A model generated the notes under the pieces. That model saw nothing but the letters and a program-made list of their open reading frames with translations, searched no databases and was not told the DNA's origin. The position numbers and the translations under genes were made by a program. Source: Verrucomicrobiales bacterium (GTDB lineage: Bacteria > Verrucomicrobiota > Verrucomicrobiia > Verrucomicrobiales > DEV007). From it: a stretch of 46,709 bases of DNA. The stretch lies in NCBI GenBank assembly GCA_029233965.1, contig JARGOP010000020.1, positions 1 to 46,709 of the forward strand, read 5' to 3'. This document shows positions 1,621 through 44,451 of the stretch, in pieces (position 1 is the first letter of the stretch; every line of letters begins with the position of its first letter).

Positions 1621-4449
1621 ATGATGATGCACCGCGTTTTTGCCCTCTTCTTTTTCAGTGTCAGTGTCAGTGTCAGTTTCAGCGCCGTCGCGGCTGAATT
1701 TCCGGAGCCCTACAACACCGAACCGGGTGACCCCTCGCCAATGCCGGCAGGGGAAGCTGCGGCGACGGCAACGCTGCCGGAGGGGTTTCGTCTTGAGGTC
1801 TTTGCCTCGGAGCCTGAGGTCCAGCAGCCGATCGCGATTTGCTTTGATGAACCCGGCCGCCTTTGGGTCGCAGAGTGTTATACCTACGCGGAGCGTCCCC
1901 TTCGCTGGGATCTTGAGTTGCGTGACCGGATTGTCGTTCTTGCGGACACGAGCGGGGATGGAAAATCAGATTCACGGACGGTCTTCTGGGATGAGGGGAA
2001 AAGACTCACGAGCATTGCCTGGGAACAGGGCGGAGTCTGGGCGCTTTGCGCGCCGGAGTTGCTTTTCATTCCGGATGCAGACGGCGATCTCGTGCCGGAC
2101 GGCGACCCGGTCGTAGTCCTCGATGGATTCGATGCCGAACTCATCGGTCACAATGTCGTGAACGGCCTGAAGTGGGGGCCCGATGGATGGCTCTACGGAC
2201 GCCACGGGATCACCGCGACCTCGCGGGTGGGGGCACCGGGCGCGCCGGAAAGCGAGCGGACCTCGCTGAATACTTCGATCTGGAGATTTCAACCGGAGCG
2301 AAAGGTTTTCGAAGTGGTTTCGCATGGAGGAACGAATCCCTGGGGACTCGACTGGGACAAAAACGGCCAGCTCTTTTACACGAACACCGTGATCGGTCAT
2401 CTCTGGCACGCGATACCGGGCGGGTATTTTGAGCGGATGTTCGGGGCGCATCTCAACCGTCATGCCTATGAGCTGATCCAGCACACCGCTGATCACTATC
2501 ATTGGGACAAGGGAAGTGAAAAGTGGAGCGACATTCGCGAGGGGATCTCGGGAAAGACCTCGGACCTCGGTGGCGGTCACGCGCACATGGGGTGCCTCAT
2601 TTACGAGGGCGGCGTCTGGCCGGCTCAGTATCAGGGTAAGCTCTTCACCTGCAATCTGCACGGGCGCCGGGTCAATATGGAGCGGCTTGATCGCGAAGGC
2701 GTCGGCTACGTCGCCCGGCATGAACCTGATTTTCTCATGATGAAAGACCCCTGGTTTCGCGGGCTCGATCTCGTGACGGGACCGGATGGTCAGGTTTGGG
2801 TCAATGATTGGTCGGACACCGGGGAGTGTCACGACAACGACGGGATTCATCGCACCAGTGGGCGGATCTACCGGATTGTCTACGAGGGGGCGGATGCAGG
2901 GAAGCCGACGACGGGGAGACCCGGGTGGCTCACGCAGCGCAGGGATCCTGATTTCGGCCGGGAGAATATTGAGGCTTTGTTAGCCTCGGGCGATGAGCCG
3001 CGAATTGCGATGGGGGTTCGCTGGTTCGCGGAGGATTTTGGTGAGGACGGCGGGACCGCGAAGCGTTTCCTTGCGCTGGCGAAGGATGCTCCCGACGGGC
3101 TTGTCCGCCTTGAGTTGGCATCGGCGCTTCAACGCATCCCCCTCGAGGAGCGAATTCCGTTGGCTTCCGTTCTCTCGCAAGTCGTTGCCGACGCCGATGA
3201 TCGACAGCAGCCTTTGATGATCTGGTATGGGATTTCCGAAGCCGTTCCGGCCTTCCCGGAGGCAGCGGTGGAACTGGCGATCGATTCGAAGCTGCCCACG
3301 GTGAGCCGCCTTATCGCAAGAAGACTGGCGGAGGAAATTGAGGAGAATCCGGATCCGGTGAATGACTTGCTCACGAAAGCCGCCGCGAACGCGGATCCCG
3401 GGATCCTCAGTGCGGTCCTGACCGGAATTGGAGAAGCTCTCGGTGGTTGGAGTCAGGCTCCGAAGCCCGCGGTGTGGGAATCCATCGTCGCGGCCGGGAA
3501 TGAGTCAGACTCACCCGGATTGAAGGATCGCATCCGGGAGCTTTCCGTTCTCTTCGGAGACGGCAGGGCCCGTGAAGAGTTGTTGGCCATCGCCGCGAAT
3601 CTCGAAGCGGATCCGGGAGCGCGCCGGTCCGCTTTGGTTCATCTCCTCAGACAGCCGGACGTTGATCTGCTTCCTCTCCTCAAAAAGTGGGTCACGGATA
3701 AGGTGATTGCGCCCGAGGCGGTTCGGGGATTGGCGCTCTACGAGGAAAAGGGGTTGTCGGCTCAGATCCTGAATTTCTGGACGCGCAACCCGATCCATCG
3801 CCCCGTCGCGATTGACACTCTCGTTTCGAGGGCGTCCTATGCCTCTGATTTGCTGGATGCGATCGAAAAAGGACGCATCCCGCCCCGCGCCGTTTCCCCG
3901 TTTCAGGCGAGACAGATCCGGAGCCTTGAAGACGAAACATTGAACAAGCGTCTCGGGGAACTCTGGGGGGAAGTGAACGAAACTTCGGCGGAGAAGAAGG
4001 AGGAGATCGCGAAGTGGAAGTCTCTCCTGACAGAGGAAGTGATCGGGCAGGCGGATCCCGTGAAAGGTGAGGTGGTCTTTGCACAGAGCTGCGGCGCCTG
4101 TCATCAACTCTATGGAAAAGGCGGCAACTTCGGCCCTGATCTGACGGGGAGTGATCGACACAATCTGGATTATCTCCTCGGCAATATCATCAATCCGAAC
4201 GATGTCGTTCCCGCGGACTATCGATTGACGGTGTTTACGCTCAAAGACGCTCGCGTCGTTTCGGGAATCGTTCCGGAAGAGGATGAACGCTCCGTTTCGG
4301 TGCAGACTCCGGCCGGGTTGGTGAAGATCGAGGCGAAGGAGATTCAATCCCGCGAGACGCTGCCGCTTTCTCTCATGCCCGAAGGTCTTCTCAAAGCGAT
4401 GCCGGATGAAGAGGTCAGAGATCTCATCGCTTACTTAATGTCACGATGA
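1621..4449 (+). CDS. PVC-type membrane-bound dehydrogenase with HEAT-like region and c-type heme domain
   Basis: This large exported protein has three regions. After a signal peptide (residues 1-25) comes a beta-propeller (about 45-420) with the hallmark PEGFRLEVFASEP entry and the strand WGPDGWLYGRHG typical of the PVC putative membrane-bound dehydrogenase family. A middle alpha-helical HEAT-like segment spans about 440-800. A C-terminal heme domain carries Cys824-Gly-Ala-Cys827-His828 followed by GGNFGPDLTG, the pattern of the PVC CxxCH heme-binding domain. The family is presumed to oxidise sugars or alcohols at the cell surface and pass electrons to the heme, but its substrate is not established. 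The stop overlaps the ATG of the next sulfatase (ATGA at 4446), so the two are probably translated together. The start is the first of three consecutive ATG codons. Confidence 0.85.
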   Translation: MMMHRVFALFFFSVSVSVSFSAVAAEFPEPYNTEPGDPSPMPAGEAAATATLPEGFRLEVFASEPEVQQPIAICFDEPGRLWVAECYTYAERPLRWDLELRDRIVVLADTSGDGKSDSRTVFWDEGKRLTSIAWEQGGVWALCAPELLFIPDADGDLVPDGDPVVVLDGFDAELIGHNVVNGLKWGPDGWLYGRHGITATSRVGAPGAPESERTSLNTSIWRFQPERKVFEVVSHGGTNPWGLDWDKNGQLFYTNTVIGHLWHAIPGGYFERMFGAHLNRHAYELIQHTADHYHWDKGSEKWSDIREGISGKTSDLGGGHAHMGCLIYEGGVWPAQYQGKLFTCNLHGRRVNMERLDREGVGYVARHEPDFLMMKDPWFRGLDLVTGPDGQVWVNDWSDTGECHDNDGIHRTSGRIYRIVYEGADAGKPTTGRPGWLTQRRDPDFGRENIEALLASGDEPRIAMGVRWFAEDFGEDGGTAKRFLALAKDAPDGLVRLELASALQRIPLEERIPLASVLSQVVADADDRQQPLMIWYGISEAVPAFPEAAVELAIDSKLPTVSRLIARRLAEEIEENPDPVNDLLTKAAANADPGILSAVLTGIGEALGGWSQAPKPAVWESIVAAGNESDSPGLKDRIRELSVLFGDGRAREELLAIAANLEADPGARRSALVHLLRQPDVDLLPLLKKWVTDKVIAPEAVRGLALYEEKGLSAQILNFWTRNPIHRPVAIDTLVSRASYASDLLDAIEKGRIPPRAVSPFQARQIRSLEDETLNKRLGELWGEVNETSAEKKEEIAKWKSLLTEEVIGQADPVKGEVVFAQSCGACHQLYGKGGNFGPDLTGSDRHNLDYLLGNIINPNDVVPADYRLTVFTLKDARVVSGIVPEEDERSVSVQTPAGLVKIEAKEIQSRETLPLSLMPEGLLKAMPDEEVRDLIAYLMSR
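1655..1684 (+). repeat. Hexanucleotide microsatellite (TCAGTG-like) inside a signal peptide
   Basis: Five tandem 6-base units are present: three perfect TCAGTG copies followed by TCAGTT and TCAGCG. They encode alternating Ser-Val in the hydrophobic core of the signal peptide of the heme dehydrogenase. Because the unit is two codons long, slippage would change signal length without shifting the frame. Confidence 0.8.
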
Positions 4450-6044
4450 TTTTCAACCCGGTCGTTGCCATGCGAAATGTTTTACTGCTGCTCATTGGTT
4501 TCACAGGATTGATCCTCCCGCCGACCGTGCTCGGTGAAGAGGATGCTCTGCCTGACATTGTCATTATTTTGGCCGACGACATGGGCTGGGGCGATCCGCA
4601 GTGTTATGAGCCGGATTCAAAGATTCCGACTCCCAATCTGGATCGGCTCGCCGATGAAGGGATGCGCTTCACCGATGCCCATACGCCGTCTTCGGTCTGC
4701 ACCCCGACCCGATACACGCTCCTGACAGGGCGCTATTGCTGGCGGACATGGCTGGAGAAAGGGGTCCTCGACGGCTTCGGGCCTCCTCTCATTGGCGGCG
4801 GGGAAGACACGGTTGCGACCTTGCTGAAGCGGGCCGGCTACCGGACTGCCTGTGTTGGAAAGTGGCATCTCGGTATGCAGTGGCACGATCTCGAGGGCAA
4901 TCCTGTCGGAGAAAGGGGCGCGCAGGGGTTTCGGCCCGGTGACACGATGGATTTTGGTCAGGACCTGACAGGGGGACCGAACGACGTCGGCTTTGACTCC
5001 TATTTCGGGATCTCGGCTTCTCTCGACATGAGTCCCTACGTCTATCTTCGGGACCGCCGCGTCGAAACGCGGCCGACTGCGTGGCATGAGAAAATTGAGG
5101 ATACGATTTTTCTCAACGGCGTTTCCGGGGTGAAGTCACCGGGTTTTGACATTCACGATGTTCTTCCCCGCTTTGGTGAGGAAGCGGTCCGTGTGATTTC
5201 GAGTCATGCCGGGAAAGCCAATCCGCTCTTTCTCTATCTGCCGCTCAATTCTCCCCACTTGCCGGTATCCCCTTCCGCCGGAGTGAAGGGTAAGAGCGAG
5301 GCAGGAGACTACGGGGATTTCGTTTGGGAGACCGATGAAGTGGTCGGGCGTGTCCTCGACGCGCTGGACGAAACGGGCATGGCGGAAAATACACTCGTGC
5401 TCTTCACGAGTGACAATGGCGGTCTCTGGCATTGGTGGAACTTCCGGGCGGACGATGATGGCGGGAAAGCACCAACCACACCGAGAGGTGACTATGTCAG
5501 GGAGTTCGGGCATCAGAGCAATGCGGACTGGAGAGGAACCAAGGCCGATATCTACGAAGGCGGTCACCGGGTTCCCTTTCTGGTTCGTTGGCCCGCAAAG
5601 GTGAAAGGTGGCCGGGTCAGTGAAGCACTGGTCGAACTCACCGATGTCTTCGCGACGGTGGAAGAGATCACCGGGCTGAAAGGGAAAGAGACTTCCGGGA
5701 TGGACAGCTTTTCGATGCTTCCGGTCTTGCTCGGCGCGGCGGAGGAGGTGCGCCCGTTTTCGATCCATCATTCTCTCGCGGGAACATTTGCCCTGCGGCA
5801 AGGGCCCTGGAAAATGATCGAAGGTCGCGGGTCCGGTGGTTTTACCCGGCCCCGTCACGCCCGGGATTTCGACGATGACATCCCCGGCCAGCTCTACAAT
5901 CTCGATTCGGATTTTCAGGAGACAAAGAACCGGTGGGTGGATGAATCGAAGCGGGTCTCCGAAATGAAGTCTTTCCTCGAAACGGTGCGGGAAACTTCGG
6001 CGAGAGACGCGGCAAGCGGAAAATCGGTTGTTGGCAGGGATTGA
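4446..6044 (+). CDS. Secreted sulfatase (arylsulfatase family, Cys-type)
   Basis: This is a predicted sulfate ester hydrolase exported by an N-terminal signal (hydrophobic residues about 12-28). The active-site signature Cys85-Thr-Pro-Thr-Arg89 is the CxPxR form in which the cysteine is converted to formylglycine. Metal-binding aspartates are in LADDMGWGD (Asp44 and Asp45) and TSDNGG (Asp323, Asn324). GKWHLG (138-143) and SPHLP (269-273) supply the conserved lysine and histidines. At 532 residues the length is normal. The ATG at 4446 overlaps the upstream stop (ATGA), matching several couplings in this window; an alternative ATG at 4470 gives a shorter signal. It is a close paralogue of the sulfatase at 23684-25219, sharing RFTDAHTPS and TGRYCWRT. 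The substrate is unknown. Confidence 0.9.
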
Positions 6045-10629: not shown

Positions 10630-10817
10630 GAGTGCGTTGGCTTCAAGTAAAGCAACAGCTGTTGAAGCATTTTTGCAATCAACAAACGGGCCGTGAGAGC
10701 GACGAATAAGGGCGGAATTTCATGCGACTGTTCCGATCTGATTTCTACAAATTCGTGCCTGAATCTTCATGGTCCGCGGATTGCCTTTCCTTTCCGTTAC
10801 GCTCAGAATGGCATTCT

Positions 10818-13800
10818 ATGGCATCCCGAATTTCCTGTTTCGCTCTCAGCGTTCTGTTGTCCGTTTTTCCGGTCTTCGCTGAGGAATCGGAATCAATAGA
10901 GCGTCCCAATATCCTTCTCCTCCTGGTGGATGATTTGAAGCCCGCTCTGGGATGTTATGGTGATGAAACCGCGCAGACTCCCCATCTTGACGCACTGGCG
11001 GCGAGAGGGATGCGATTCGATGCCGCGTATTGCAATCAAGCCGTTTGCGCCCCTTCCCGTTTTACCTTGATGTTGGGAGCGCACTCGACGTCGACGGGCC
11101 TCTATGGCCTCGGAAGCGATCTTCGCGCTGTTCTGCCCGAAGCGGTCACTCTGCCTCAATACTTTGCGAAATACGGGTACCGGACGGAATCACTGGGCAA
11201 GATTTTTCATATCGGTCATGACAACGAAGGTGATCCCGAATCTTTTTCGGTTCCGCATTTCAAAGAGAAAGTCATCGAATATGTGGACCCGGCGAGTACC
11301 CCCGGCGGTCAGCTCACCCGCGAGGAGGCGATGTTCACGAACGCGCGGAAAACCAATCCTGAGATCGGGGACTACAACAAGCTCCCGCGGGGCGCGGCCT
11401 TCGAGTCGCCTGAGGTCGACGATGAGGCCTACGCCGACGGCCGCGTCGCGAGGGAAACCCTGGCGAGACTTGCCGCCGCAAAAGAGCGTCGCGAATCGGA
11501 AGGAACGCCATTCTTCATTGCCGCCGGCTTCGCCCGTCCCCATCTTCCGTTTTCGGCTCCGAAGAAATACTGGGACCTTTACGATCCTGACCTTCTCCCC
11601 ATGCCTGCGGAGGAGGAGTTGCCGGAAAATTCACCGACGGTGGCGCACAAGCGGGGAGGGGAGATCCGGAATTACTTCCCGGTTCCGGATAAAGGTGATC
11701 CTGCCCGGATTTCAGACGAGCTGAAGCGGGAACTGATTCATGGCTACTATGCGAGCACGAGTTACGTCGATGCTCAGATCGGCAAAGTCATCGATGGGCT
11801 CGATGAACTCGGTCTTGCCGAAAACACCATCATCGTGCTTTGGGGGGATCATGGATTTCATCTCGGTGATCTCGGGATCTGGACGAAGCACACAAACTAC
11901 GAGCAGGCGAATCGCATCCCGATTCTCTTCGTCGCGCCCGGCGTGGCGGAGCCGGGAAGTTCGACGGGGCAACTCACGGAGACGGTGGACATTTATCCGA
12001 CCCTTGCCGAACTGGCCGGTTTGCCGGCACCCCGGGGCCCGCAACCGATGGACGGAGTCAGTCTCGTCCCGGTCTTGAAAAACCCGGAAGTGCGCGTTCG
12101 GGATCATGCCTTTCATGCCTACCCGAAAGGGAAGATTGGCCGGGCGATCCGAACCGATCGCTACCGGCTCGTGGAATGGAAGAACCCCGGTGCGGATCCT
12201 TCGCAGGCTGAGTATGAATTGTATGATTACGCGGAGAACGATCTTGAGCTGGTGAATATTGCCGGCGGGAAGCCGGAGAAGCTTTCCGAACTCAAGTCGA
12301 TTCTTCAGCAATACCCTGAGGCGGTGGGTCGGGATTCCTCACCGCCGGCTGCGGCGAAGAAGACAGCGAATCAGTCAGGCGGGGTGGAGCTGGAGGAGTA
12401 CGCCCCTCTCATCGCGAATGTGCCGCTGAAGATTCACGCCGAGGTTCGGCCGAAAGGAGACCGGGCCGAAGGCGTGGTCCTCGCGCAGGGTGGTCGGGAA
12501 CACGGCTATGCTCTTCATTTTGTGCAAGGACGGCCGGCCTTTGATGTGAGAGTGAACGGAAAGGTCAGCCGACTCATCAGCGAAGAGCCGATGAAGGGGA
12601 TCATTCGACTGGATGCTGAACTCAACGAAGAGGTGATGACGTTCTCGATTAACGGAGGTGAGCCTCTTTCCAGGCCCTCGCCCGGACTGATCCCGAAGCA
12701 GCCACAGGACGGGCTTTCGGTCGGCCTCGACCGGCGTTCTGCTGCGGGCGATTACGAAGCGCCGAATCCGCTGACGGTCATGATTTCCAACACCCGGGTC
12801 GAGGCGGGGGGGAATCCTCCTGCAGTCGCGGGAGCGATGACACCCGGGGAGATCCGGGCCGGATTTGCTGCTCATGACCGGGCCCTCTTCGTGAAAGAAG
12901 GATGGATTCGCGATCCGTATCTCATTACCGGACCGGACGGCTGGATGTATCTCACGGGGACAACACCGCTGAATGGCGATCCCAGAGAAGAGACAGATCC
13001 CTACAACACCGGCCTCGGTGATGAATCCATCGTCGGTTGGAAAGCGAATGTCTGGCGGAGCAAAGACTTCGCGACCTGGGAATCACTTGAGGCCCCGTTC
13101 TCGTTGAAAGACGGGATCTGGTATCAATCCATTCCGGAGGCCTTCAGCAAAACGCCGGAGAAACACTGGTTCCTCTGGGCGCCGGAACTTCACTGGATCG
13201 AATCGATGAAGAAGTGGGCCCTGGTCCACACCAGCCCGACTCCGGTGGCGGGCGCGAATCTTTCGCTGAGTGCCGGTCCCGAAGTGGCCGGTCCCTGGAC
13301 AAACCCCATGGGCGTTGCCATTCAAAAACGCCATGACCCCTCTCTCTTTCGAGATGACGACGGCACCTGGTGGATGGTGTGGGGAGCCACGAAAATTGCC
13401 CCCCTCGAACCTGACTTCTCCGGTTTTTCCGGAAAGGAGATCGCGATTTCGCCCGGAGGTGACACGAAGCAGATGGGGCATGAAGGATGCCTCATCATGA
13501 AGATTGAAGGGAAATACGTCCTCTTCGGAACCGGCTGGTCGACGGGGGAAATGCGCCGCGGAAGCTACAATCTCTACTACGCGGTTGCCGATCACATTAC
13601 CGGCCCCTACAGCGAGCGGAAATTCGCGGGTCGTTTCCTCGGGCATGGAACCCCGTTTCAGGATCCGGAAGGGCGCTGGTGGTGCACCGCATTTTACAAT
13701 GCCAATGTGCCTCCTCTCAGCCGGGAAGGAATTGAGAATCGCGATCTCAGTGATACCGCGCAAACGATCAATGCGAGGGGCACCACGCTGGTTCCACTGG

Positions 13801-13898
13801 ACGTGAAATTGCTCGACGATGGAGAGCTCTGGATCCGGGCGAAAGATCCGGCCTACGCCACGATCGGGCTGGATGAGGCTCAGGAGTTTGATCGTTGA
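10818..13898 (+). CDS. Three-module secreted enzyme: sulfatase, LamG-like domain, GH43-like propeller
   Basis: A signal peptide (residues 1-21) is followed by an iduronate-2-sulfatase-like domain (about 28-490), with LLVDDLKPALG for metal binding, Cys77-Ala-Pro-Ser-Arg81 as formylglycine site, GKIFH and WGDHGFHLGDLG. A beta-sandwich resembling LamG/concanavalin-like domains follows (about 525-675; AEVRPKGDRAEGVVLAQGG). The C-terminal part (about 690-1020) looks like a GH43-type five-bladed propeller: WIRDPYLITGPDGWMYLTGT, WAPELHWI, RHDPSLFRDDDGTWWMVWG and HGTPFQDPEGRWW contain the usual acidic residues. This would let one protein remove both a sulfate and a sugar residue. There is no internal stop or frameshift, so the fusion is real in this sequence. 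The ATG at 10818 was preferred over 10722 because it starts the signal peptide. The 3' end overlaps the convergent PAP2 gene by 19 bases. Confidence 0.88.
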   Translation: MASRISCFALSVLLSVFPVFAEESESIERPNILLLLVDDLKPALGCYGDETAQTPHLDALAARGMRFDAAYCNQAVCAPSRFTLMLGAHSTSTGLYGLGSDLRAVLPEAVTLPQYFAKYGYRTESLGKIFHIGHDNEGDPESFSVPHFKEKVIEYVDPASTPGGQLTREEAMFTNARKTNPEIGDYNKLPRGAAFESPEVDDEAYADGRVARETLARLAAAKERRESEGTPFFIAAGFARPHLPFSAPKKYWDLYDPDLLPMPAEEELPENSPTVAHKRGGEIRNYFPVPDKGDPARISDELKRELIHGYYASTSYVDAQIGKVIDGLDELGLAENTIIVLWGDHGFHLGDLGIWTKHTNYEQANRIPILFVAPGVAEPGSSTGQLTETVDIYPTLAELAGLPAPRGPQPMDGVSLVPVLKNPEVRVRDHAFHAYPKGKIGRAIRTDRYRLVEWKNPGADPSQAEYELYDYAENDLELVNIAGGKPEKLSELKSILQQYPEAVGRDSSPPAAAKKTANQSGGVELEEYAPLIANVPLKIHAEVRPKGDRAEGVVLAQGGREHGYALHFVQGRPAFDVRVNGKVSRLISEEPMKGIIRLDAELNEEVMTFSINGGEPLSRPSPGLIPKQPQDGLSVGLDRRSAAGDYEAPNPLTVMISNTRVEAGGNPPAVAGAMTPGEIRAGFAAHDRALFVKEGWIRDPYLITGPDGWMYLTGTTPLNGDPREETDPYNTGLGDESIVGWKANVWRSKDFATWESLEAPFSLKDGIWYQSIPEAFSKTPEKHWFLWAPELHWIESMKKWALVHTSPTPVAGANLSLSAGPEVAGPWTNPMGVAIQKRHDPSLFRDDDGTWWMVWGATKIAPLEPDFSGFSGKEIAISPGGDTKQMGHEGCLIMKIEGKYVLFGTGWSTGEMRRGSYNLYYAVADHITGPYSERKFAGRFLGHGTPFQDPEGRWWCTAFYNANVPPLSREGIENRDLSDTAQTINARGTTLVPLDVKLLDDGELWIRAKDPAYATIGLDEAQEFDR

Positions 13899-16400: not shown

Positions 16401-17474
16401 TTAGATTTCAGCGGGAACCTCAGGTCCGGCCGGTTCTGCAGGCGCGTCGGCTTCCGGAGAGGCCGGAGCAGCGGTCGGAACAATCTTCGCTCCTTCGCGA
16501 AGTTCCGTGAGATATGCTTCGATCTTTTCTCCCTTCTCCTGCTCGAAAAGATTGGTGGCAAGGTCCTCTTTGACCTCCTCGTAGGTCAGCGTCTTCGCCT
16601 CTTTGCGGTCGGTAACCTTGATGATGTGATACCCGAAATCAGTCTTCACGAGGTCTCCGATCTCACCGACTTTCTGTTCGAACGCGGCTTTCTCAAACTC
16701 AGGCACCATCTGGCCTGCGGCAAACTGCCCGAGGTCCCCGCCCTGAGCCTTGCTCGGACAGTCGGAGTGAGCGCCGGCGAGTTCAGCGAAATTCTCGCCT
16801 TTCGCCTCAGTGAGCTGTGCTTTGATGTCTTCCGCTGACTTCTTCTTTGCTGCGATCGCAGCTTCGTCGGTGAGGTCCCGGGTGGAGATGAGAATGTGGG
16901 CAGCGGAAACGCTGGCGTCCTGTTTGAACTCGTCAGGATGCTCATCATAGTAGGCCTTCACGGCAGTCTCTTCAGGCTCCTTAATGTCTGCTGTCACCTT
17001 GTCAAACAGCTGACGAATTTTGATATCGTCTCCGATTTGACCTTTGATTCTCGAAAGATCGACGCCGGCCTGAGCGGCATAGTCTTCGATCTTGATGCCT
17101 TCGGGGAGGGACTTTGCGATTTCAGCCATCTTTGCATCGACCTCAGCAGGAGGGGCCTTGAAACCCTCTTTGTCGGCGGCATTGATGAAAAGGGCTTTGG
17201 AGATGAGATCTCCCATCACCATTTGCTGCATTTGCTGCTGCACCATCGCAAGTTGCTCAGGTGGCATCTGCTGAAGCTGACGGCCGAATCGGGCCATCAT
17301 GATTTCGCGGACATCTTCCTCCGTGATCGGGGTGCCATCGACGGTGAGGAGGACGGGGCTGGAAGTGGCGGCAGCGGGAGCCGCAGCTTCATCCTGTGCC
17401 GTCGCCGGGTGGGAAATCGCAAGAAGGCTGAGCAACGCAAGCGCAGCCGTGAACATTGTAGTAAGGACTTTCAT
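16401..17474 (-). CDS. SurA/PrsA-like periplasmic peptidyl-prolyl isomerase (parvulin)
   Basis: This secreted chaperone/isomerase helps fold exported proteins. A signal peptide (1-26, ending ATA) is followed by an N-terminal helical SurA-N-like region (about 40-180: [19 protein letters not shown], rich in Met and Gln). The parvulin domain occupies about 190-290 and shows [29 protein letters not shown] and [11 protein letters not shown], the conserved histidines and Gly-Asp-Leu-Gly of PpiC rotamases. A Pro/Ala/Glu-rich tail ends the 357-residue protein. It is monocistronic by appearance, with a divergent sulfatase 266 bases away; no clear promoter or operator was found in that gap. A periplasmic location fits the many secreted enzymes encoded nearby. 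Confidence 0.88.
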
Positions 17475-17740
17475 GATTTAGCAGGTGTCAGGAGCGGATA
17501 GGCTCCCGGGGTTTCTGTCCGGTTCCCACGCAGAGAAATTGAACTTGGCGGAACGGATCGGTAGAGTTTCGGTCCAAATAGAGCAGGCACAACCCCATTC
17601 TTCGTCCGTAAAAGCGGTGATTTTATGCGTTTTCACCCCGGCGCGGGTCTGAAGCCAAACTCCGTGCAGGGCAGGAATAGCTCGATTTGGCGGAATCAGG
17701 GCTCGTTTTCCGGGCCGGTTTCGTGTCATCTTCCCGCCCT

Positions 17741-19135
17741 ATGAAGTCTGTTTTCTGTGTTTTTTTCGTTCTTCTGGCGGTCTCTCCGGGCATCGCGGTA
17801 GAGAAGCCGAACACCATCTATATCCTCGCGGACGATCTCGGAGTGGGGGACGTCGGTGTTTACGGACAGACCTTGTTGAAGACGCCGAGGATTGATCAAC
17901 TCGCGGCCGAAGGGATGCGTTTCACGCAGCATTATTCCGGCAGCTCAAGTTGTGCCCCGACCCGCAGCTGTCTTATGACCGGTCAGCACACAGGTCACAC
18001 CCGGGTGAGGAAAAATGGTGACGGGCCTCTGTTGGCCGAAGACGTGACGATCGGGGAAGTGCTTCAGGAGGCCGGTTACAAGACGGCCGCAATCGGCAAA
18101 TGGGGGGTCGGGGAAGAGGGCACGACCGGAGTTCCGTGGGAGCAGGGATTCGATTATTTCTTCGGCTATCTCAATCAGAGGAATGCACATCATCACTACC
18201 CGCCGTTCCTCTGGAGAAATGACCGGAAAGTTCTCTATCCCGGCAATCCGGAAATGCGCACGCACTACAGTCATGACGAGTTCACGCGGGAGGCCCTGAC
18301 ATTCATCCAGGAAAATCAGGGGGAGCCGTTTTTTCTCTACGTGCCCTATACGCTCGTCCACGTGGACCTCGATGTGCCCGCTGATTCGATGGATCCGTGG
18401 GTCGGGAAAATTGAGGAAACGAAACCGCACGGTACGCCGGGAGGTCAGCATTACATTTACCAGGAGAAACCCCATGCCGCCTTCGCGGGAATGGTTTCCC
18501 GATTGGACCGGGACGTCGGGAGGATTGTCGACCTTGTCGATGAACTCGGCATCGCGGAAAACACACTCATCATTTTCACGAGTGACAACGGGCCCACTTC
18601 AGCCGGCGGGGCGGATCCGGCTTTCTTCGATGGGAACGGTCCTTTTCGAGGGATCAAGTTTGAGTTCTACGAAGGCGGGATTCGTTGCCCCATGATTGCG
18701 AGATGGCCCGGCAAGGTGAAAGCCGGATCGGAAACCGATCATGTTTCCGCGCATTGGGATGTTCTCCCGACCGTCGCGGAGTTGGCGGGAACGACGGCAC
18801 CGGAGGGCATTGATGGAGTGAGTTTCCTGCCGACCCTCCTCGGGAACGCGGATGAACAGGAAGTGCACCCTCATCTCTACTGGGAGTCGGCCGACAGGAA
18901 GGGTTGGCAGGCGTTGAGGATGGGGAAGTGGAAAGCCCACCGGATCGGGACACGGTCTCCCGGCAGGGAAGTATTCGAACTCTACGACCTCTCGAATGAC
19001 ATCGCCGAGGAGAAGAACGTCGCCGACGAATTTCCGGAAGTGCTTCGCGAGGTGCGGAAGATCATGCAAGAGGGACGAACCGGTCCTGCAACCGGGGATA
19101 CCCTCTTTCTTCCTGCTCCGGAGAAAAAGCAGTGA
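17741..19135 (+). CDS. Secreted sulfatase (arylsulfatase A-like, Cys-type)
   Basis: This is a predicted formylglycine sulfatase. The signal peptide covers residues 1-19. Metal-site aspartates lie in LADDLGVGD (Asp31, Asp32), the activation motif is Cys71-Ala-Pro-Thr-Arg75, and GKWGVG and TSDNGPTSAGG give the conserved lysine and the second metal-binding pair. The pattern YNQRNAHHHYP-like (actually LNQRNAHHHYPPFLW) and HVDLDVP resembles arylsulfatase A-type enzymes common in PVC bacteria. The ATG at 17741 starts the signal peptide; the frame is open upstream to 17687 without apparent coding value. It abuts the convergent Gfo/Idh/MocA gene with no intervening base. The substrate cannot be inferred. 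Confidence 0.9.
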   Translation: MKSVFCVFFVLLAVSPGIAVEKPNTIYILADDLGVGDVGVYGQTLLKTPRIDQLAAEGMRFTQHYSGSSSCAPTRSCLMTGQHTGHTRVRKNGDGPLLAEDVTIGEVLQEAGYKTAAIGKWGVGEEGTTGVPWEQGFDYFFGYLNQRNAHHHYPPFLWRNDRKVLYPGNPEMRTHYSHDEFTREALTFIQENQGEPFFLYVPYTLVHVDLDVPADSMDPWVGKIEETKPHGTPGGQHYIYQEKPHAAFAGMVSRLDRDVGRIVDLVDELGIAENTLIIFTSDNGPTSAGGADPAFFDGNGPFRGIKFEFYEGGIRCPMIARWPGKVKAGSETDHVSAHWDVLPTVAELAGTTAPEGIDGVSFLPTLLGNADEQEVHPHLYWESADRKGWQALRMGKWKAHRIGTRSPGREVFELYDLSNDIAEEKNVADEFPEVLREVRKIMQEGRTGPATGDTLFLPAPEKKQ

Positions 19136-23106: not shown

Positions 23107-23640
23107 ATGAGAGCATCATTCATCCCCCTGACGACGCTTTTCGCCGGGTTGCTTTGTTTGTCGAATTCGGCCGCCGCGGCACCGGAGGTTGGAGACAGAG
23201 CCCCCGGGTTTTCCCTGAAAGGGAGCGACGGAAAGACCTATTCCACGGCCGATTACAAAGGCAAACAAGCCATGGTCATTGCCTGGTATCCCAAGGCCTT
23301 CACCGGGGGATGAACGGCTCAATGTGAGTCACTCCGTGAGAGTGGCAAAGAGATTGACGCGTTCGACGCAGCCTACTTCACCGCGAGTTGTGATGATGAG
23401 GAGACCAACGCCAGATTTGCAGAGTCGCTGAATCTTGATTACCCGATCCTGAGTGATCCGGATCGTGAAGTGGCGATGGAATACGGGCTCGTCAACAACG
23501 AGAGAGGAATGCCGAAGCGCTGGACCTTCTACATCGGGAAGGACGGCAAAATCCTATTCATCGATACGGCCGTGAAGGCCCGGAGTCACGGAGCCGACAT
23601 TGCCGCCAAGCTCGAGGAGCTGGGGGTCGACAAAAAATAG
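23107..23640 (+). CDS. Periplasmic peroxiredoxin (AhpC/TSA, Bcp-like), probable selenoprotein (Sec69, TGA at 23311-23313)
   Basis: This is a thioredoxin-fold peroxidase reducing hydroperoxides. The signal peptide covers residues 1-24. The core reads APGFSLKGSDGKTYSTADYKGK, then AWYPKAFTGG, then TGA at codon 69, then TAQCESLRESG. In cysteine homologues the residue at that TGA is the peroxidatic cysteine, followed by Thr and a second Cys four residues on, which is present here (Cys73). The frame stays open after the TGA for another 108 codons with all family features (YPILSDPDREVAMEYG, PKRWTFYIGKDGKILFID) to the TAG at 23638-23640. A SECIS-like stem-loop follows the TGA. Conventional calling gives a 68-residue truncated peptide ending at 23313. 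A GGGAGG lies about 16 bases before the ATG. Total length is 177 residues. Confidence 0.92.
23328..23346 (+). promoter_or_regulatory. Bacterial SECIS-like hairpin in the peroxiredoxin gene
   Basis: GTCACTC (23328-23334) pairs with GAGTGGC (23340-23346) to give a 7-base stem (one T/G wobble) with the loop CGTGA. The loop G at its second position is 23 bases after the TGA, and G is followed by T, as in the Escherichia coli fdhF element recognised by SelB. Placement and loop agree with the msrA hairpin in this window. The pairing was assessed by eye, and a weaker overlapping alternative (GGCTC with GAGTC) exists. Confidence 0.7.
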
Positions 23641-23683: not shown

Positions 23684-25219
23684 TCAGTTTTCCTTGATGT
23701 CCTCGAGCAGCGCCTGCAGTTCGGCGACTACGTCCGGGTGTTCGTCCCAGAGGTTCCGCGTCTCGGAAGGATCGTTTTCGAGATGATAGAGTTGGCCTTC
23801 GGGGCCTCCGTGTTCCCCGGGGTCAATTTCTCCCGGGAAAGTGAATCCTCCCGAGCCGCGCTGCGGTATCATTTTCCAGGGCCCTTTGCGCAGCGCAAAT
23901 TTTCCCCGGAGCGAATGGTGGACGGCAAACTCACGAACGGAAGTTTCCGGGGTGGCGGAGAGCAGCGCGGGCAAAGCGTTGAAGCTGTCTTCGCCGGCTC
24001 CTGCCGGTAACTCCTCTCCGATAAGAGCAGCGCAGGTGGCGAGCAGATCGGTCAACTCGATGAGTTCATCGCTCTCGGCTCCCGCCGGTGTCTTCCCGGG
24101 CCAGCGAACCACGAAAGGAACGCGATGTCCGCCTTCCCAGATGTCCGCCTTGGTGCCGCGAAGGTGCATGTTCCCCTGGTGACCGTATTGCTTCATGGAA
24201 GCACCGCGGCTGTTGGGACGGAGAAACTCGACGTCATCGGCTTCCTGAGGCTCCCACCAGTGATAGAGACCTCCGTTGTCCGAGGTGAAAATCACCATGG
24301 TGTTCCCGGCGAGCCCGGTGCGGTCGAGCGTGTCGAGAATGGCTCCGAGAAAAGCGTCGGTTTCGACCACGAAGTCTCCATATTCACCGGCCTCGCTGAG
24401 ACCGCGGAATTCCTCGTTCGGAACCACCGGGAGATGGGGCGAGGTCAGGGGGGCGTAGAGAAAAAACGGTATGTCAGCGCGGTTGGCGGCCTGCTCTTCG
24501 ATGACGCGGACGGCCTCTCCGGTGAGCCGGGGCATCACGCCGTAGATCGAAAAATCGGGAGAGCGCATTCCTTCGTCGATGACAATGAATTCCGTTCGAA
24601 TCGCCGGCTGTCGCAAGGTGGGCACGAGATAAGGGCGGTCATTCACGAGGTAGCAGAACGGCGGCATGTTCAGTGAAGCGGAGATGCCGAAGAAAGTGTC
24701 AAAACCAACATCGATGGGACCGCCGGTGACGGGGATATTGTAGTCGACATTGTCCCCGGGGCGGGGCGGGATCTTCCGGTCGATCGAGACCGCCGGAACC
24801 GGGTTTCCTTCGAGGTCAGTCCACGTCATTCCGAGGTGCCACTTTCCGACGCAATGGGTGTCGTAGCCGACCCTGCGGAGAAGCCCCGGGACGGTCACCT
24901 GATCCTTCGTGATGAGAGGAGGATCCATCCCGTCAAGAACGCGATATTTCAATCGGGTGCGCCAGCAATAGCGTCCTGTCAGGATGCCGTAGCGTGTCGG
25001 AGTGCAGACAGCCGACGGCGTGTGCGCGTCGGTGAAACGCATTCCCTCCTCTGCGAGCCGATCGACATAGGGGGTCTCGATCCGTGACTCCCCGTTGTAG
25101 CAGGAGAGGTCTCCCATGCCGAGATCATCGGCGAGAATGTAAATGATGTTTGGAGGCGCGGTCGCTGCGGTGGCGCTGACGACCGCGAGAGAGAGGGCAA
25201 GAAACAAAGCAGATTTCAT
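23684..25219 (-). CDS. Secreted sulfatase (arylsulfatase family, Cys-type)
   Basis: This is a predicted sulfate ester hydrolase with signal peptide (residues 1-21). It has LADDLGMGDLSC for metal binding (Asp31, Asp32), activation motif Cys72-Thr-Pro-Thr-Arg76, GKWHLG, SPHLP and TSDNGGLYHWW. The blocks [26 protein letters not shown] and FGISASLNM are shared almost word for word with the sulfatase at 4446-6044, so the two are recent paralogues or descendants of a local duplication. At 511 residues it has normal length. The ATG at 25219 was chosen because it begins the signal peptide; the open frame reaches 25297. The gene is downstream of RNase R (84 bases) on the same strand but functionally unrelated. 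Confidence 0.9.
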   Translation of the reverse strand: MKSALFLALSLAVVSATAATAPPNIIYILADDLGMGDLSCYNGESRIETPYVDRLAEEGMRFTDAHTPSAVCTPTRYGILTGRYCWRTRLKYRVLDGMDPPLITKDQVTVPGLLRRVGYDTHCVGKWHLGMTWTDLEGNPVPAVSIDRKIPPRPGDNVDYNIPVTGGPIDVGFDTFFGISASLNMPPFCYLVNDRPYLVPTLRQPAIRTEFIVIDEGMRSPDFSIYGVMPRLTGEAVRVIEEQAANRADIPFFLYAPLTSPHLPVVPNEEFRGLSEAGEYGDFVVETDAFLGAILDTLDRTGLAGNTMVIFTSDNGGLYHWWEPQEADDVEFLRPNSRGASMKQYGHQGNMHLRGTKADIWEGGHRVPFVVRWPGKTPAGAESDELIELTDLLATCAALIGEELPAGAGEDSFNALPALLSATPETSVREFAVHHSLRGKFALRKGPWKMIPQRGSGGFTFPGEIDPGEHGGPEGQLYHLENDPSETRNLWDEHPDVVAELQALLEDIKEN

Positions 25220-25303
25220 CGGGACAAGGGTCATCCCGATGACCGGAGTTCGTAAAGCTTTCGCCCGGCAGATTCGCGTGAGGAGAGGCGAATCCAACAG
25301 GGT

Positions 25304-27748: not shown

Positions 27749-27945
27749 CCAAAGTGGGAGAAGGGTGAAATCTTTGTCTCACGGGACCAGGGTGCGGAGT
27801 AGACGGTTCTCCGGTTTGGTCACAAGGATAGCTTTTCAGTCCTGTATAGTCGGTGAAACGAGCCAAAAAGCAAGAAGAGGCTTTGACACCGCAATCTCGT
27901 CTCTCCCGGTCCTTTCGAAGTCGTGCTATGATCCGCCCACTTATC

Positions 27946-29424
27946 ATGACGAAATCGAAATCCATTTCCCTGTTACTTTTGTTGCTCGGCCTGTGTACCC
28001 TTTCGACCGCACGGGCGGCGGAGGCGAAGAATGTTCTCTGGATCTATCTCGAGGATGTCAGCGGGTGGTTCAGCTGCTATGGCGACGAGATCATTGAAAC
28101 ACCTAACATTGATGCACTGGCGGATGCCGGAACGAAGTTTACCCGTTTCTATACCCCGGCAGGCGTTTGCTCGGCGACCCGCTCCGCGATCGTGACCGGG
28201 ATGATGCAGACCTCGATCGGGGCGCATCATCACCGCAGTGCGCGCGCTGAATTCAGAGGAAAACCGATGGGTGACTACGACAAAAACGTTCTTCCGGAGG
28301 AGGCGACGCCGCTACCGATTCGTTTCCGCGAGGCAGGTTACTGGACCTTCAATGAAGGAGGAAAAGATGATTACAACTTTGCATGGGATGTGGAGAGCTT
28401 TTACGATTACGAGCGCAGCCGTGGCGGATGGGGGCCTGCATCATTTCTCGCGGGAGACTGCCTCAAAGACAAGCCGGAAGGGAAGCCGTTCTTCGGCCAA
28501 ATTCAGTTGGGCGGGGGAAAACTGAGCCGGACCCGGGGGCACAAAGAACTGGTCGAGAAGGTGGTCGATCGAAGCAAGGTTCCGGTGCCTCCCTATTATC
28601 CTGATGTGCCGGAGGTTCGTGAATGGATTGCGGACCATTACGATTGCCTCCTCGCGACGGACCGGCAGGTGGGTCAGATCATTGCGAAGTTGAAAGAGGA
28701 GGGGCTCTATGAGAACACGATGATTTTCACCTTCAGTGATCACGGGATGGGCCTTCACCGGCACAAGCAGATGCTCTATGAAGGGGGGATTCGCATGCCC
28801 CTTATCGTGAACGGTCCGGGTATTGCGGCGGGGGAAGTCCGCGACGATCTCGTCAGTGGGATCGATATTTCAGCGGCCTCGCTGGCGGCCGCGGGCATTG
28901 CCGTTCCGGAGACGATGGAAGGCCGGGATTTTCTCGCGGGAGACTACCTGCCCCGTGACTATGTTATCGCGGCGCGTGACCGCTGTGATTACACGATCGA
29001 AAAGATCCGGGCGGTGGTGACTCCCCGTTTCAAATACCTGCGCAATTACCTGACCGATCGTCCTTACATGCAGCCGACCTACAAGGACGATTGGGATGTC
29101 ACGAAAAAGTTCCGGGAGATGATGGCGAACGGGGAGATGAACGAGCTCCAACTTGTCTTCTTCGGCGATTCACGGGTCCCCGAGGAATTCTATGATCTTG
29201 AGAACGATCCGCACGAGCTCTACAACCTCGCGGAGGATCCGCACTTTGCGGAGGAACTCGAGCAGCACCGCGCCTATCTCGCCGCGTGGATCGAAGAGAC
29301 CGGCGATAAAGGACAGGAGCCGGAATCCGCCGCCGGGCTTCTTTCCACCCTCAAGCGCTGGGGCGACAAGTGCGTAAACCCGGAGTACGACCGGGTCCGC
29401 CATTTGTTGAAGGAGGGGGAGTGA
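27946..29424 (+). CDS. Secreted sulfatase, heparan N-sulfatase (SGSH)-like, Cys-type
   Basis: A signal peptide (1-25) precedes the sulfatase domain. The activation motif is Cys75-Ser-Ala-Thr-Arg79, the variant with Ala in place of Pro. It is set in YTPAGVCSATRSAIVTGM and followed by QTSIGAHHHRS, which resembles sulfamidase-type enzymes and some choline-sulfatase relatives. Metal-binding residues are in IYLEDVSGWFSCYG, where the usual Asp-Asp reads Glu-Asp, and in TFSDHGMGLHRHKQ. The C-terminal region YDLENDPHELYNLAEDP is the standard sulfatase closure. The ATG at 27946 starts the signal peptide. N-sulfoglucosamine would be a reasonable substrate guess but is not proven. A minus-strand TIM-barrel gene follows convergently after 39 bases. 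Confidence 0.88.
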   Translation: MTKSKSISLLLLLLGLCTLSTARAAEAKNVLWIYLEDVSGWFSCYGDEIIETPNIDALADAGTKFTRFYTPAGVCSATRSAIVTGMMQTSIGAHHHRSARAEFRGKPMGDYDKNVLPEEATPLPIRFREAGYWTFNEGGKDDYNFAWDVESFYDYERSRGGWGPASFLAGDCLKDKPEGKPFFGQIQLGGGKLSRTRGHKELVEKVVDRSKVPVPPYYPDVPEVREWIADHYDCLLATDRQVGQIIAKLKEEGLYENTMIFTFSDHGMGLHRHKQMLYEGGIRMPLIVNGPGIAAGEVRDDLVSGIDISAASLAAAGIAVPETMEGRDFLAGDYLPRDYVIAARDRCDYTIEKIRAVVTPRFKYLRNYLTDRPYMQPTYKDDWDVTKKFREMMANGEMNELQLVFFGDSRVPEEFYDLENDPHELYNLAEDPHFAEELEQHRAYLAAWIEETGDKGQEPESAAGLLSTLKRWGDKCVNPEYDRVRHLLKEGE

Positions 29425-30494: not shown

Positions 30495-31076
30495 ATGAGT
30501 GATTTACCGGAAGACTATTTTAAGCCGACGGCAGGAAAGCTGGGACAGTTGATTTACGAAAATCCGGGAGAGGGCGTGGAGCCACGCCTGCAGTTCTTCA
30601 TCGAGATTGCCTTTGCCCCTTTCGAAATCGATGACGAGACGGTTCATCCGATCCTGAGAGCCGATAATCTCGTGGTCGCAGCGAAGAGCTGGAAGGAGCT
30701 GCGGAATCAAACGTACGAATTTCCCTGGGCTCCGAAGCCGGGATCGGTGGAGGCGGCGGTGCTTCTTTTCGGGGAACACAACCCGGCGGACGTCACAAAG
30801 ATCGTCTTCGGCGGGGCGGCGGATGGGAAGATTAAGGTGGCTTTCGAGACCGAAGTTGACTTTGAAGTGGAAGCGGATCGCGATGATCTCGAGCAGATCG
30901 AAATGCAGTTTCACCTCGATCTTGAGCTCCAGCCCCTCCGCGTTTCGACTTCACTGGAAAAACGGTGCGGAGGTGATGAGTCCGGGATCGTGAGAGTGAT
31001 TTCGGAACTGGTCAACCTGAGCGATTACGGCGCGATTGAAAAGGCGCCGGGCGGTTTCATTTTCCCGGTGTCCTGA
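30495..31076 (+). CDS. Hypothetical protein, beta-rich, cytoplasmic
   Basis: A 193-residue protein without signal or membrane segment, rich in Glu and Asp, beginning MSDLPEDYFKPTAGKLGQLIYENPGEG. The stretch VEAAVLLFGEHNPADVTKIVFGG and the alternating hydrophobic/acidic KVAFETEVDFEVEADRDDLEQIEMQFHLDLEL suggest a beta-sandwich or sheet-rich fold. No family was recognised. The ATG at 30495 was chosen because AGGAG stands 7 bases upstream, one of the better ribosome binding sites in the window; the frame is open from 30378 but that part has no evidence. It is followed closely by the degenerate haemagglutinin-like gene on the other strand. Confidence 0.75.
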   Translation: MSDLPEDYFKPTAGKLGQLIYENPGEGVEPRLQFFIEIAFAPFEIDDETVHPILRADNLVVAAKSWKELRNQTYEFPWAPKPGSVEAAVLLFGEHNPADVTKIVFGGAADGKIKVAFETEVDFEVEADRDDLEQIEMQFHLDLELQPLRVSTSLEKRCGGDESGIVRVISELVNLSDYGAIEKAPGGFIFPVS

Positions 31077-31083
31077 CAGGATA

Positions 31084-31806
31084 CTATTCCGCCGCTGCTC
31101 CGAGTTGGGCATAGGCGTTTGCACCGGTGCCGGTCGCGCGGACGAAACCGCGCTCGCCGTCCGCGCCGGTCCTGGTTTTCATGAGCAATTCCTCTCCGGC
31201 GGAAAGGCCGACCGTTTCCTCAGACGCGGTGATCGAGCCGCTGTTCGTGATTGTTATTCCCAATCAGAAACACATCCCCCCGATCGCGTTGATTTGATCG
31301 AGATTGGAGACGCCGTTGTTGCCATTCCCTTTGAAAACGAGATCACTGCCCGCGAGGATTTCTCCGTTGTCGATGTCGAGGATCGAAAGAACGAGGCCAT
31401 CAGCTTCGATCAAACCTCCGGAGCTCACAAGGATGCCGTTCGGGGCGATCACGACGACGTTTTCATTTGCCTCGAGAGCTCCCGGAATCGAGGACGGGTC
31501 TCCGTCCGTGACACGGTTCAGGATGGAAGCGTCAGCTCCGGGTTGGATGAAGCGGGTGAGTTCGCCGGGCGCGATCGAGAAGCCGACGCGCTTGATGATT
31601 GCCTGGTTTGACGACTGATTCATCTGCAGGTTTCCGTCACCGGCATTTTGAAACGAAACGTCACCGTGAACGACAACGCCTCCTGTCGGGTTCGCCTGAA
31701 CCGGTCCGGTGTTGAAGAGCATGCCGGGAAGGAGAACGGTGAGGGTCAGCTTCCGGAGTGGAGTATCGCTACGCAGCGACGAGAGAGGCTTGGTTGCAGG
31801 TTTTCT
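31084..31806 (-). pseudogene. Degenerate filamentous-haemagglutinin N-terminal domain (two-partner-secretion-like) gene
   Basis: The minus strand encodes the typical haemagglutination-activity domain of two-partner-secretion exoproteins: ANPTGGVVVHGDVSFQNAG, LQMNQSSNQAIIKRVGFSIAPGE, IPGALEANENVVVIAPNGILVSSGGLIEADG and SDLVFKGNGNNGVSNLDQINAIGG. It then meets a TGA at 31264-31266. Two small compensating indels explain this: restoring one G in the G-run at about 31274-31280 gives DVFLIG, and removing one A near 31255-31258 rejoins the original frame at TITNSGSITASEETVGLSAGEELLMKTR. The frame ends at TAG (31086-31084), far short of the thousands of residues usual for the family. A signal-like LTLTVLLPG precedes the ATG at 31722, but no conventional start serves it. 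The gene is almost certainly non-functional. Confidence 0.75.
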
Positions 31807-32053: not shown

Positions 32054-33805
32054 TCAGGGAGCGACCTTGACCAGCTCGAGAGAATGGACATCGATCGCTT
32101 CCGTCCCGACGAAGTCCTTTGCGGACAGTGTCAGGGTGTTGGCTCCGGCCGGTAGCGAAATCGTTCCGAGGATGAGTGGCTTGAAATCCTTGACGAAGTA
32201 ATGAGATTCGGCGACCCGCTCTTTCGATTTGTCGTAGAGCGGGGGATCAAAGGCTTCTGACACAGGGGCCTCAGTGAAAGATCCGGCTTTGTCCGTGAGC
32301 TTGATCTTCACCCCGAGGTCCTCTTTGCGACAGGTGCAGTTGACAGTGATCTCGAAACGAGCCGGTTCCGCGACTTCGATTTTCCAGGTGATGGTTCCGT
32401 CTTCGGAAGTCCAGTTTTCGAAAAAGGAATTGTTGGGTGCCTTCGAGCTTCGCTGAATATCTCCATGCGGGACGCCGTCGCGAGCCGGAAGGGTGGTGTG
32501 TTTGTGGTAGCCGACCGTGAAAGGTCGTTCCCGGTTCTGTTCTGCCAGCCCCTGCGCTTCGATCCTGAATGCTTTCGCCGCGGCCCTCAATTCTTCGGCG
32601 ATCGCGGGGTGTTGTCCTGATACATCGGTCAGTTGTCCGCGGTCGGAGTGGATATCGAAAAGTTTCCCGCTGTCATCGAGGCGGAAGCGCTGGTTTCGAA
32701 CACTCAGTTTATTCCGGAAAATATGGAAGAGAATGCGCTCGTCCCATTTTCCGGTGTCTCCGAAAAGGAGAGGGGTAAGGCTTCGACCGTCGAGAGGTTT
32801 GGTTGGTCTGTCAGGAATGTCTGCTGCTTCAAGAAGGGTCGGGAGGATGTCGATGGCACCCGCGATCTTTGCGATCTGATGTCCAGCCGGAATTCTGTCA
32901 GGCCAGCGCACGAAGAACGGCGTGCGAAGTCCTCCTTCGTCGACCGATCCTTTCTTTCCTTTCATTCCGCCGTTCCAGCGAAAGGAGTTGGGCCCGTTGT
33001 CGGAAAAGTAGATGACGATGGTGTTTCCGCTGAGGTCGAGGGATTCGAGCGTCTCTAGAACGCGCCCAACGTTCCAGTCGATGTTCTCACACATCGCGAG
33101 AGCAGCGCGGGTCATCGGGAGGTCCTCTTTCTCGGGATCGCGATATTTCATTTCGGGATCGAGATCGGCGAAATGATCGTAGAAGTCGTCGTCGATCATC
33201 ATGGGGGAGTGAGGCGTGTTGTAGGGGATGTAGCAGAAGAAAGGCTCATCCCTGTTCTCCTCGATGAAACGGATCGCGTGGTCCGTGAGGTCATCGACGA
33301 GGTAGCCGTTGCCTTTCACGATCTTCCGGTTGTGGTCGAGAGGCGGACTGAAGTAATGCCCCCAGTGGCCTGAAGTGAAACCGTAGTATTCATCGAAGCC
33401 GCGATCATTCGGATGATAGGGAGCCTGGGTTCCGTTGTGCCATTTCCCAAACGCTCCGGTCGCGTAGCCCGCATTCTTCAGCAGGTCAGCGAGAGTGGTT
33501 TCGTCAGGGTTGATCCGTTCGGTGCCTTCGCTGACACCGCTCACGCCCGTTTTGGGATGGTAGCGGCCAGTAAGAAATTCAGCACGGGTCGGAGCGCAAA
33601 CGGCGCAGACGTAGAAGTTTTCGAAGGAAGCCCCCTCGCGAGCCAGCGAGTCGATGTGCGGAGTTTTCAGATTTGTATTTCCGTGAATGCTGAGATCACC
33701 CCAGCCCTGATCGTCAGTCAGAAACATGACGATGCTAGGTTTCTCCGCGGCCGCTGAGGACAACAGGTGAAAAAAGAACAGTGTGAGGAGGAGAAGGCGT
33801 TTCAT
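32054..33805 (-). CDS. Secreted sulfatase with C-terminal CBM-like beta-sandwich domain
   Basis: A signal peptide (1-20) is followed by the sulfatase domain: FLTDDQGWGDLSIHG with Asp40-Asp41 as metal ligands (FLTDDQ), activation motif Cys70-Ala-Pro-Thr-Arg74, FGKWHNG, and YFSDNGPNSFRWNGG. After the usual sulfatase closure near residue 435, an extra C-terminal region (about 455-583) reads ITWKIEVAEPARFEITVNCTC, VKIKLTDKAGSFTE, ILGTISLPAGANTLTLSAKDF, the pattern of galactose-binding or CBM6-like beta-sandwiches attached to PVC sulfatases. This probably holds the enzyme on a polysaccharide. The upstream TIM-barrel gene ends 12 bases before the start, so the two are probably cotranscribed. The specific substrate is unknown. 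Confidence 0.9.
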   Translation of the reverse strand: MKRLLLLTLFFFHLLSSAAAEKPSIVMFLTDDQGWGDLSIHGNTNLKTPHIDSLAREGASFENFYVCAVCAPTRAEFLTGRYHPKTGVSGVSEGTERINPDETTLADLLKNAGYATGAFGKWHNGTQAPYHPNDRGFDEYYGFTSGHWGHYFSPPLDHNRKIVKGNGYLVDDLTDHAIRFIEENRDEPFFCYIPYNTPHSPMMIDDDFYDHFADLDPEMKYRDPEKEDLPMTRAALAMCENIDWNVGRVLETLESLDLSGNTIVIYFSDNGPNSFRWNGGMKGKKGSVDEGGLRTPFFVRWPDRIPAGHQIAKIAGAIDILPTLLEAADIPDRPTKPLDGRSLTPLLFGDTGKWDERILFHIFRNKLSVRNQRFRLDDSGKLFDIHSDRGQLTDVSGQHPAIAEELRAAAKAFRIEAQGLAEQNRERPFTVGYHKHTTLPARDGVPHGDIQRSSKAPNNSFFENWTSEDGTITWKIEVAEPARFEITVNCTCRKEDLGVKIKLTDKAGSFTEAPVSEAFDPPLYDKSKERVAESHYFVKDFKPLILGTISLPAGANTLTLSAKDFVGTEAIDVHSLELVKVAP

Positions 33806-44450: not shown

Positions 44451-44451
44451 G

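Follow-up and report, generated by a model that had tools for sequence, protein, structure and literature searches.

A predicted exported selenocysteine peroxiredoxin of Verrucomicrobiales and the SECIS-like hairpin that follows its TGA codon

The window analysed here is a stretch of 46,709 nucleotides on a 66.7-kb contig (JARGOP010000020.1) of a Verrucomicrobiales bacterium, whose genome of 4.8 Mb is assembled in 151 contigs. Near its middle lies a peroxiredoxin reading frame with a TGA at the active-site position. Around it the window carries sulfatase-like secreted genes, named by eye, at 4446-6044, 10722-13898, 17687-19135, 23684-25297, 27853-29424, 32054-33805 and 43005-45822, a richness in secreted sulfatases that is usual in polysaccharide-degrading marine Verrucomicrobiota. 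At 31036-31722 the minus strand holds a short filamentous-haemagglutinin-like fragment (VVHGDVSFQNAGDGNLQMNQSSNQAIIKR...) without a long gene, which may be a gene remnant.

Reading frame, fold and predicted export

The features of the peroxiredoxin locus are as follows.

23107-23640, plus strand: gene for the predicted exported selenocysteine peroxiredoxin, 177 residues if the TGA encodes selenocysteine; stop codon TAG
23107-23184, plus strand: predicted signal peptide of the Sec type, covering residues 1 to about 26, with an approximate cleavage site between ...SNSAAAA and PEVG
23290-23313, plus strand: peroxiredoxin motif P62-KAF-T66-GG-U69, invariant or nearly so in alignments A1 and A4
23311-23313, plus strand: TGA codon, putative selenocysteine 69 at the peroxidatic position; orthologues with TGC or TGT here: 31 named, 6 related
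23323-23325, plus strand: Cys73 (U+4), candidate for the resolving cysteine; found without exception in 50 TGA and 31 Cys sequences
23328-23346, plus strand: putative bacterial SECIS hairpin, stem 23328-23334 / 23340-23346, loop 23335-23339 CGUGA
23389-23391, plus strand: Cys95 (ASCD), conserved in 38 of 50 TGA and 20 of 31 Cys sequences; frequent, not universal
23518-23520, plus strand: Arg138, at the position of the peroxiredoxin catalytic Arg (R116 in M. tuberculosis AhpE); invariant

The frame runs from the ATG at 23107 to the TAG at 23638-23640, starts with MRASFIPLTTLFAGLLCLSNSAAAA and reads AWYPKAFTGG-TGA-TAQCESLRESG around its sole internal stop. A preliminary description of this DNA had placed the TGA exactly where cysteine homologues have the peroxidatic Cys and had taken the remainder of the frame to be intact. 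Both points hold: the aligned homologues show TGC or TGT at precisely this codon, and no further stop is seen before the TAG at 23638. A change of the genetic code was considered and rejected, since 23 of the 31 genes in the window stop at TGA; the codon is an ordinary stop here and the code is not reassigned.

The protein matches the Pfam family AhpC-TSA (PF00578) with an E-value of 5.9e-31 (107 bits, against a cut-off of 26). P62, T66, position 69, Cys73 and R138 are invariant in an alignment of 44 sequences. An AlphaFold2 model (pLDDT 92, pTM 0.84) puts U69 and C73 together in helix 67-78 and matches the structures of BcpB, PrxQ, Bcp1 and AhpE with Z about 22 over about 149 residues; Bcp1 and AhpE are also the sequence matches among solved structures. 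The window protein stays below the cut-off of every NCBIfam model; the 44 members taken together are matched best by PRK09437, a general thiol peroxidase model, and by PrxQ.

The selenoprotein might be real and yet act mainly as an envelope thiol/selenol oxidoreductase or as a peroxide sensor, with U69 and C73 forming a thioredoxin-like pair. Conservation of the UxxxC pair would suit such a role, and the weak NCBIfam matches include ResA/TlpA-type oxidoreductases, but P62, T66 and R138 are invariant and the top structural matches are peroxidases. Members of the PrxQ group, moreover, can use a second Cys of the same helix as the resolving residue. We consider an oxidoreductase or sensor unlikely and retain the peroxidase reading.

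The signal peptide was called from composition and its cleavage site was placed by eye; as read from the sequence, it has no lipobox (GLLC) and no twin-Arg motif. Each of the 81 compared homologues likewise has a hydrophobic N-terminal extension. With the cleavage site predicted in this way, the protein could still be cytoplasmic, or membrane-anchored by an uncleaved N-terminus, but the short basic start, the hydrophobic core and the small residues at the presumed site recur in essentially all Sec and Cys homologues, and the peroxiredoxin core has no need of such an extension. Retention in the cytoplasm or membrane is thus given little credence here, and the peroxiredoxin is predicted to be located outside the cytoplasm.

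The hairpin downstream of the TGA

The preliminary description had also reported a stem of seven bases with loop CGUGA, its G being the 23rd base past the TGA, and had proposed testing it as a SECIS element. The hairpin lies at that place, with GUCACUC (23328-23334) paired to GAGUGGC (23340-23346) over 7 bp and a fold energy of -8.1 kcal/mol for the stem alone or -12.6 for the 45 nt after the TGA. The published model of bacterial SECIS elements (bSECIS) has a loop of 3-9 nt, a stem of 4-16 bp, MFE <= -7.5, a G in the first two loop positions, mostly followed by G or U, and a distance of 16-37 nt from the UGA (PMC13188914). The window hairpin agrees with it in its energy and in having a 5-nt loop, 7 bp, a loop G followed by U and 21 nt from UGA to loop, and 48 of the 50 TGA copies fall within the loop-G and MFE limits. 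An Rfam search of the window and the gene returned no SECIS and no other RNA family, which means little because bSECIS elements differ widely.

Taken as a single sequence the hairpin is not convincing by comparison with shuffles (z=-1.52); synonymous resampling, on the other hand, yields such a hairpin in just 1.7% of versions of the stretch. The decisive evidence is comparative. Among the TGA copies (47 distinct sequences) 97.0% of cells are paired and 22 cells are changed on both sides; these both-side changes fall in 4 of the 7 pairs, and the covariation score exceeds that of 500 out of 500 shuffles. It also exceeds that of slid controls, in which partners moved by 1-3 bases pair in 31-63%. 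The Cys copies (30 distinct sequences), in contrast, are paired at 58.1%, the level of shuffles, and have no covariation. At least six of the seven pairs are found in every one of 50 TGA copies versus 5 of 31 Cys copies.

The protein changes together with the RNA at columns 22 and 32, where the pair alternates between C-G and U-A as the residues alternate between LRES and FREN; the two bases stand in different codons, so that Leu plus Ser (CTC, AGC) becomes Phe plus Asn (TTC, AAC). In one copy (L165) the pair next to the loop is G-C instead of C-G. Synonymous codon identity over codons +6 to +11 is 2.0-5.2 times expectation in TGA copies and, +6 excepted, 0.9-1.4 times in Cys copies. This covariation, present in TGA copies and lost in Cys copies, supports the proposal that the hairpin acts as a SECIS element in the TGA copies only.

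Recurrence of the TGA and the decoding machinery

Close orthologues in 57 related genomes have TGA in 12 cases and TGC or TGT in 6. A search with conserved peptides gave a second set of 80 named genomes, with TGA in 49, a Cys codon in 31 and Trp never at the site; nearly all belong to Verrucomicrobiota and Planctomycetota, Acidobacteriota contributing two. The complete genome of Planctomycetes bacterium K23_9 (CP036526, L167) has a TGA copy. The nearest named relative, judged by the peroxiredoxin protein, is a Verrucomicrobiales MAG (JARGOD010000020, 87% identity). Among 289 genomes drawn from the phylum, SelA is present in 17 and the only close orthologue at E<=1e-38 is the window's own; near relatives were not in this draw, so that the result shows no more than a patchy distribution of the family.

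The TGA genomes are SelA-positive in 12 of 12 cases, against 33 of 57 overall (probability by chance 5e-4 over the 57 genomes and 0.014 within the family, relatedness ignored). TGA codons were also seen in the matched frame of weakly similar peroxiredoxins of three SelA-negative genomes (G048, G038 and G005), and these candidates were rejected: their active site is Cys, not TGA, so they do not contradict the link to SelA.

Sec and Cys have been exchanged at least 10 times on the tree, or 12 times with the hairpin-coding residues masked, and independent Sec/Cys pairs on well-supported branches alone are too few for a formal test. One TGT copy (L106), nested in a TGA clade, keeps six of the seven hairpin pairs, as is expected for a recent change from Sec to Cys.

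The preliminary description had made its reading depend on the presence of selenocysteine machinery. We looked for it and found selA, selB, selD and part of a tRNA-Sec. The three protein genes lie within 9 kb on contig C131, with profile matches above the cut-offs (506 bits for selA; selB and selD likewise over cut-off). Their order is selD, directly selA, and selB a few genes on; selD (L050:5156-6214, plus strand) has an active-site TGA of its own (SSCAG-U-ASK).

Neither model RF01852 nor a tRNA pattern gave a tRNA-Sec, and none was seen around the sel cluster; the tRNA-Sec of a relative, used as a DNA query, then matched the end of contig C22 (C22:21178-21253, the end of L092). This piece matches the relative's tRNA-Sec region at 95%, anticodon TCA included, and is cut off at the final base of C22. 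The assembly has only the 5' part there, and the standard searches missed the gene because the contig ends inside it. A 3'-like piece at the start of contig C146 (L097:56-88) may be another copy. In the loci of 12 relatives checked there is one tRNA-Sec gene in 11 and two in 1. Second partial copies occur in G026 and G029, and two copies in G011; selC may be duplicated, or may serve as an insertion site of mobile DNA.

These data also bear on whether the TGA could be a true stop, or be read through with Trp or a near-cognate amino acid, giving a truncated or selenium-free protein. TGA is indeed the commonest stop in the window, but the site in question holds only TGA or Cys codons, and TGA there goes together with SelA as well as with the SECIS-like hairpin. 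A true stop would leave a product of 68 residues, too short to include the catalytic position or the greater part of the fold. Termination or readthrough appears very improbable. Least tenable of all is the idea that the gene of an ordinary Cys peroxiredoxin was misread in sequencing at this codon or has decayed to a pseudogene: TGA is one base from TGC and TGT, Cys orthologues exist and one of the 12 TGA copies (G014, L026) does look decayed, but downstream frames are intact, the hairpin is under selection, and the TGA, which the preliminary description had left open to replacement by TGC or TGT on resequencing, recurs in 12 related and 49 named genomes of three phyla and is thus not a sequencing error.

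The recurring TGA, the machinery and a hairpin that is SECIS-like in TGA copies alone support the selenocysteine interpretation first put forward. On this comparative sequence evidence, the frame at 23107-23640 very probably encodes an exported selenocysteine peroxiredoxin of the AhpE/BCP(PrxQ)-like branch, with selenocysteine in place of the peroxidatic Cys.

Relation to known systems and possible role

Selenocysteine peroxiredoxin (Prx, PF00578, TxxU) is listed as an established selenoprotein family in PMC13188914, whose table cites Sohling 2001 for PrxU of Eubacterium acidaminophilum. Metagenomic surveys describe 43 such genes in the Sargasso Sea, members of COG1225 (PMC1088965), and 253 in the GOS data (PMC2398784). 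The window protein shares with this family the AhpC/TSA domain, the PxxxTxxU motif with a peroxidatic selenocysteine and a downstream bSECIS. Unlike the known members as they are described, it has an export signal and a UxxxC pair, the Sargasso Sea and GOS genes being compared through their published descriptions; on the NCBI PrxU model (NF040737) it scores 34.4 bits, below the cut-off of 270. Selenoproteins of Planctomycetes were reported earlier in a paper whose main text names no peroxiredoxin (PMC4807772).

With the BCP/PrxQ proteins (X. campestris PrxQ, M. tuberculosis BcpB, Sulfolobus Bcp1) it has in common the fold (Z about 22), the motif and the catalytic Arg. It differs from them in its export signal and selenocysteine, in scoring 80 bits on the BCP/PrxQ thiol peroxidase model NF006960, below the cut-off of 140, and in the place of its second Cys, which is at CP+5 in the aligned Bcp-like homologues (CTTEAC) and at U+4 in 81 of 81 sequences here. 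M. tuberculosis AhpE is similar in fold (again Z about 22) and around the active site, FPLAFTGIC corresponding to YPKAFTGGU, but is described as a 1-Cys enzyme, whereas the window protein has the invariant Cys73 besides its selenocysteine and export signal. The Prx-like UxxC selenoproteins (SelL-related NF040769, ResA-like WAxxUGC NF041054) share the thioredoxin fold and give weak matches; they have another motif, and the scores are far below cut-off. Within the literature and models searched, the exported UxxxC lineage seems undescribed, a claim limited to that scope because older metagenome sets may contain it.

As the conserved parts suggest, SelB with GTP and Sec-tRNA(Sec) would bind the hairpin at 23328-23346, and selenocysteine would be inserted at the UGA. 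The general Sec route would then take the preprotein out of the cytoplasm, with loss of its signal peptide. Once in the cell envelope, the enzyme would reduce H2O2 or organic peroxides with the U69 selenolate, which would be positioned by P62, T66 and R138. Cys73, one helical turn from U69, would most likely resolve the selenenic acid formed in this step, and some thioredoxin-like envelope protein would reduce the selenylsulfide. The 4-kb flanks of 80 loci contain no conserved gene neighbours beyond close kin, and no redox partner gene adjoins the window's peroxiredoxin gene; gene order thus points to no partner.

Most described bacterial peroxiredoxins protect the cytoplasm. The present lineage apparently places selenium chemistry in the cell envelope, the first point reached by peroxides from outside. 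We lean towards regarding it as an unnamed subfamily of envelope selenoperoxidases, marked by a signal peptide, PxxxTxxU and an invariant Cys at U+4, in Verrucomicrobiota, Planctomycetota and some Acidobacteriota, in which the SECIS RNA would dictate protein residues (LRES or FREN) and selenoproteins would routinely be exported by the Sec route. The family offers a natural series of Sec/Cys exchanges with matching presence or decay of the SECIS hairpin, from which the evolution of these exchanges and the cost of an RNA element within a coding region can be read directly. Because gene finders cut such genes short at the TGA or miss them altogether, the enzyme is probably absent from many annotations.

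Other TGA-containing genes were encountered along the way. A second candidate for an exported selenoprotein in the same genome, at L189:484-1173 on the minus strand (contig C3, about 17183-17872), has a signal peptide, a thioredoxin-like domain (Thioredoxin_8, 1e-13) and the sequence SASW-TGA-PPC, with an 8-bp stem (TGCTCCAC/GTGGAGCA, loop AGTTG) shortly past the TGA. In G006 and G035 another Prx-like gene (L103, L104) has its TGA in GGW-U-PYC and GHW-U-PFC, respectively; these genes probably encode SelL-like UxxC selenoproteins.
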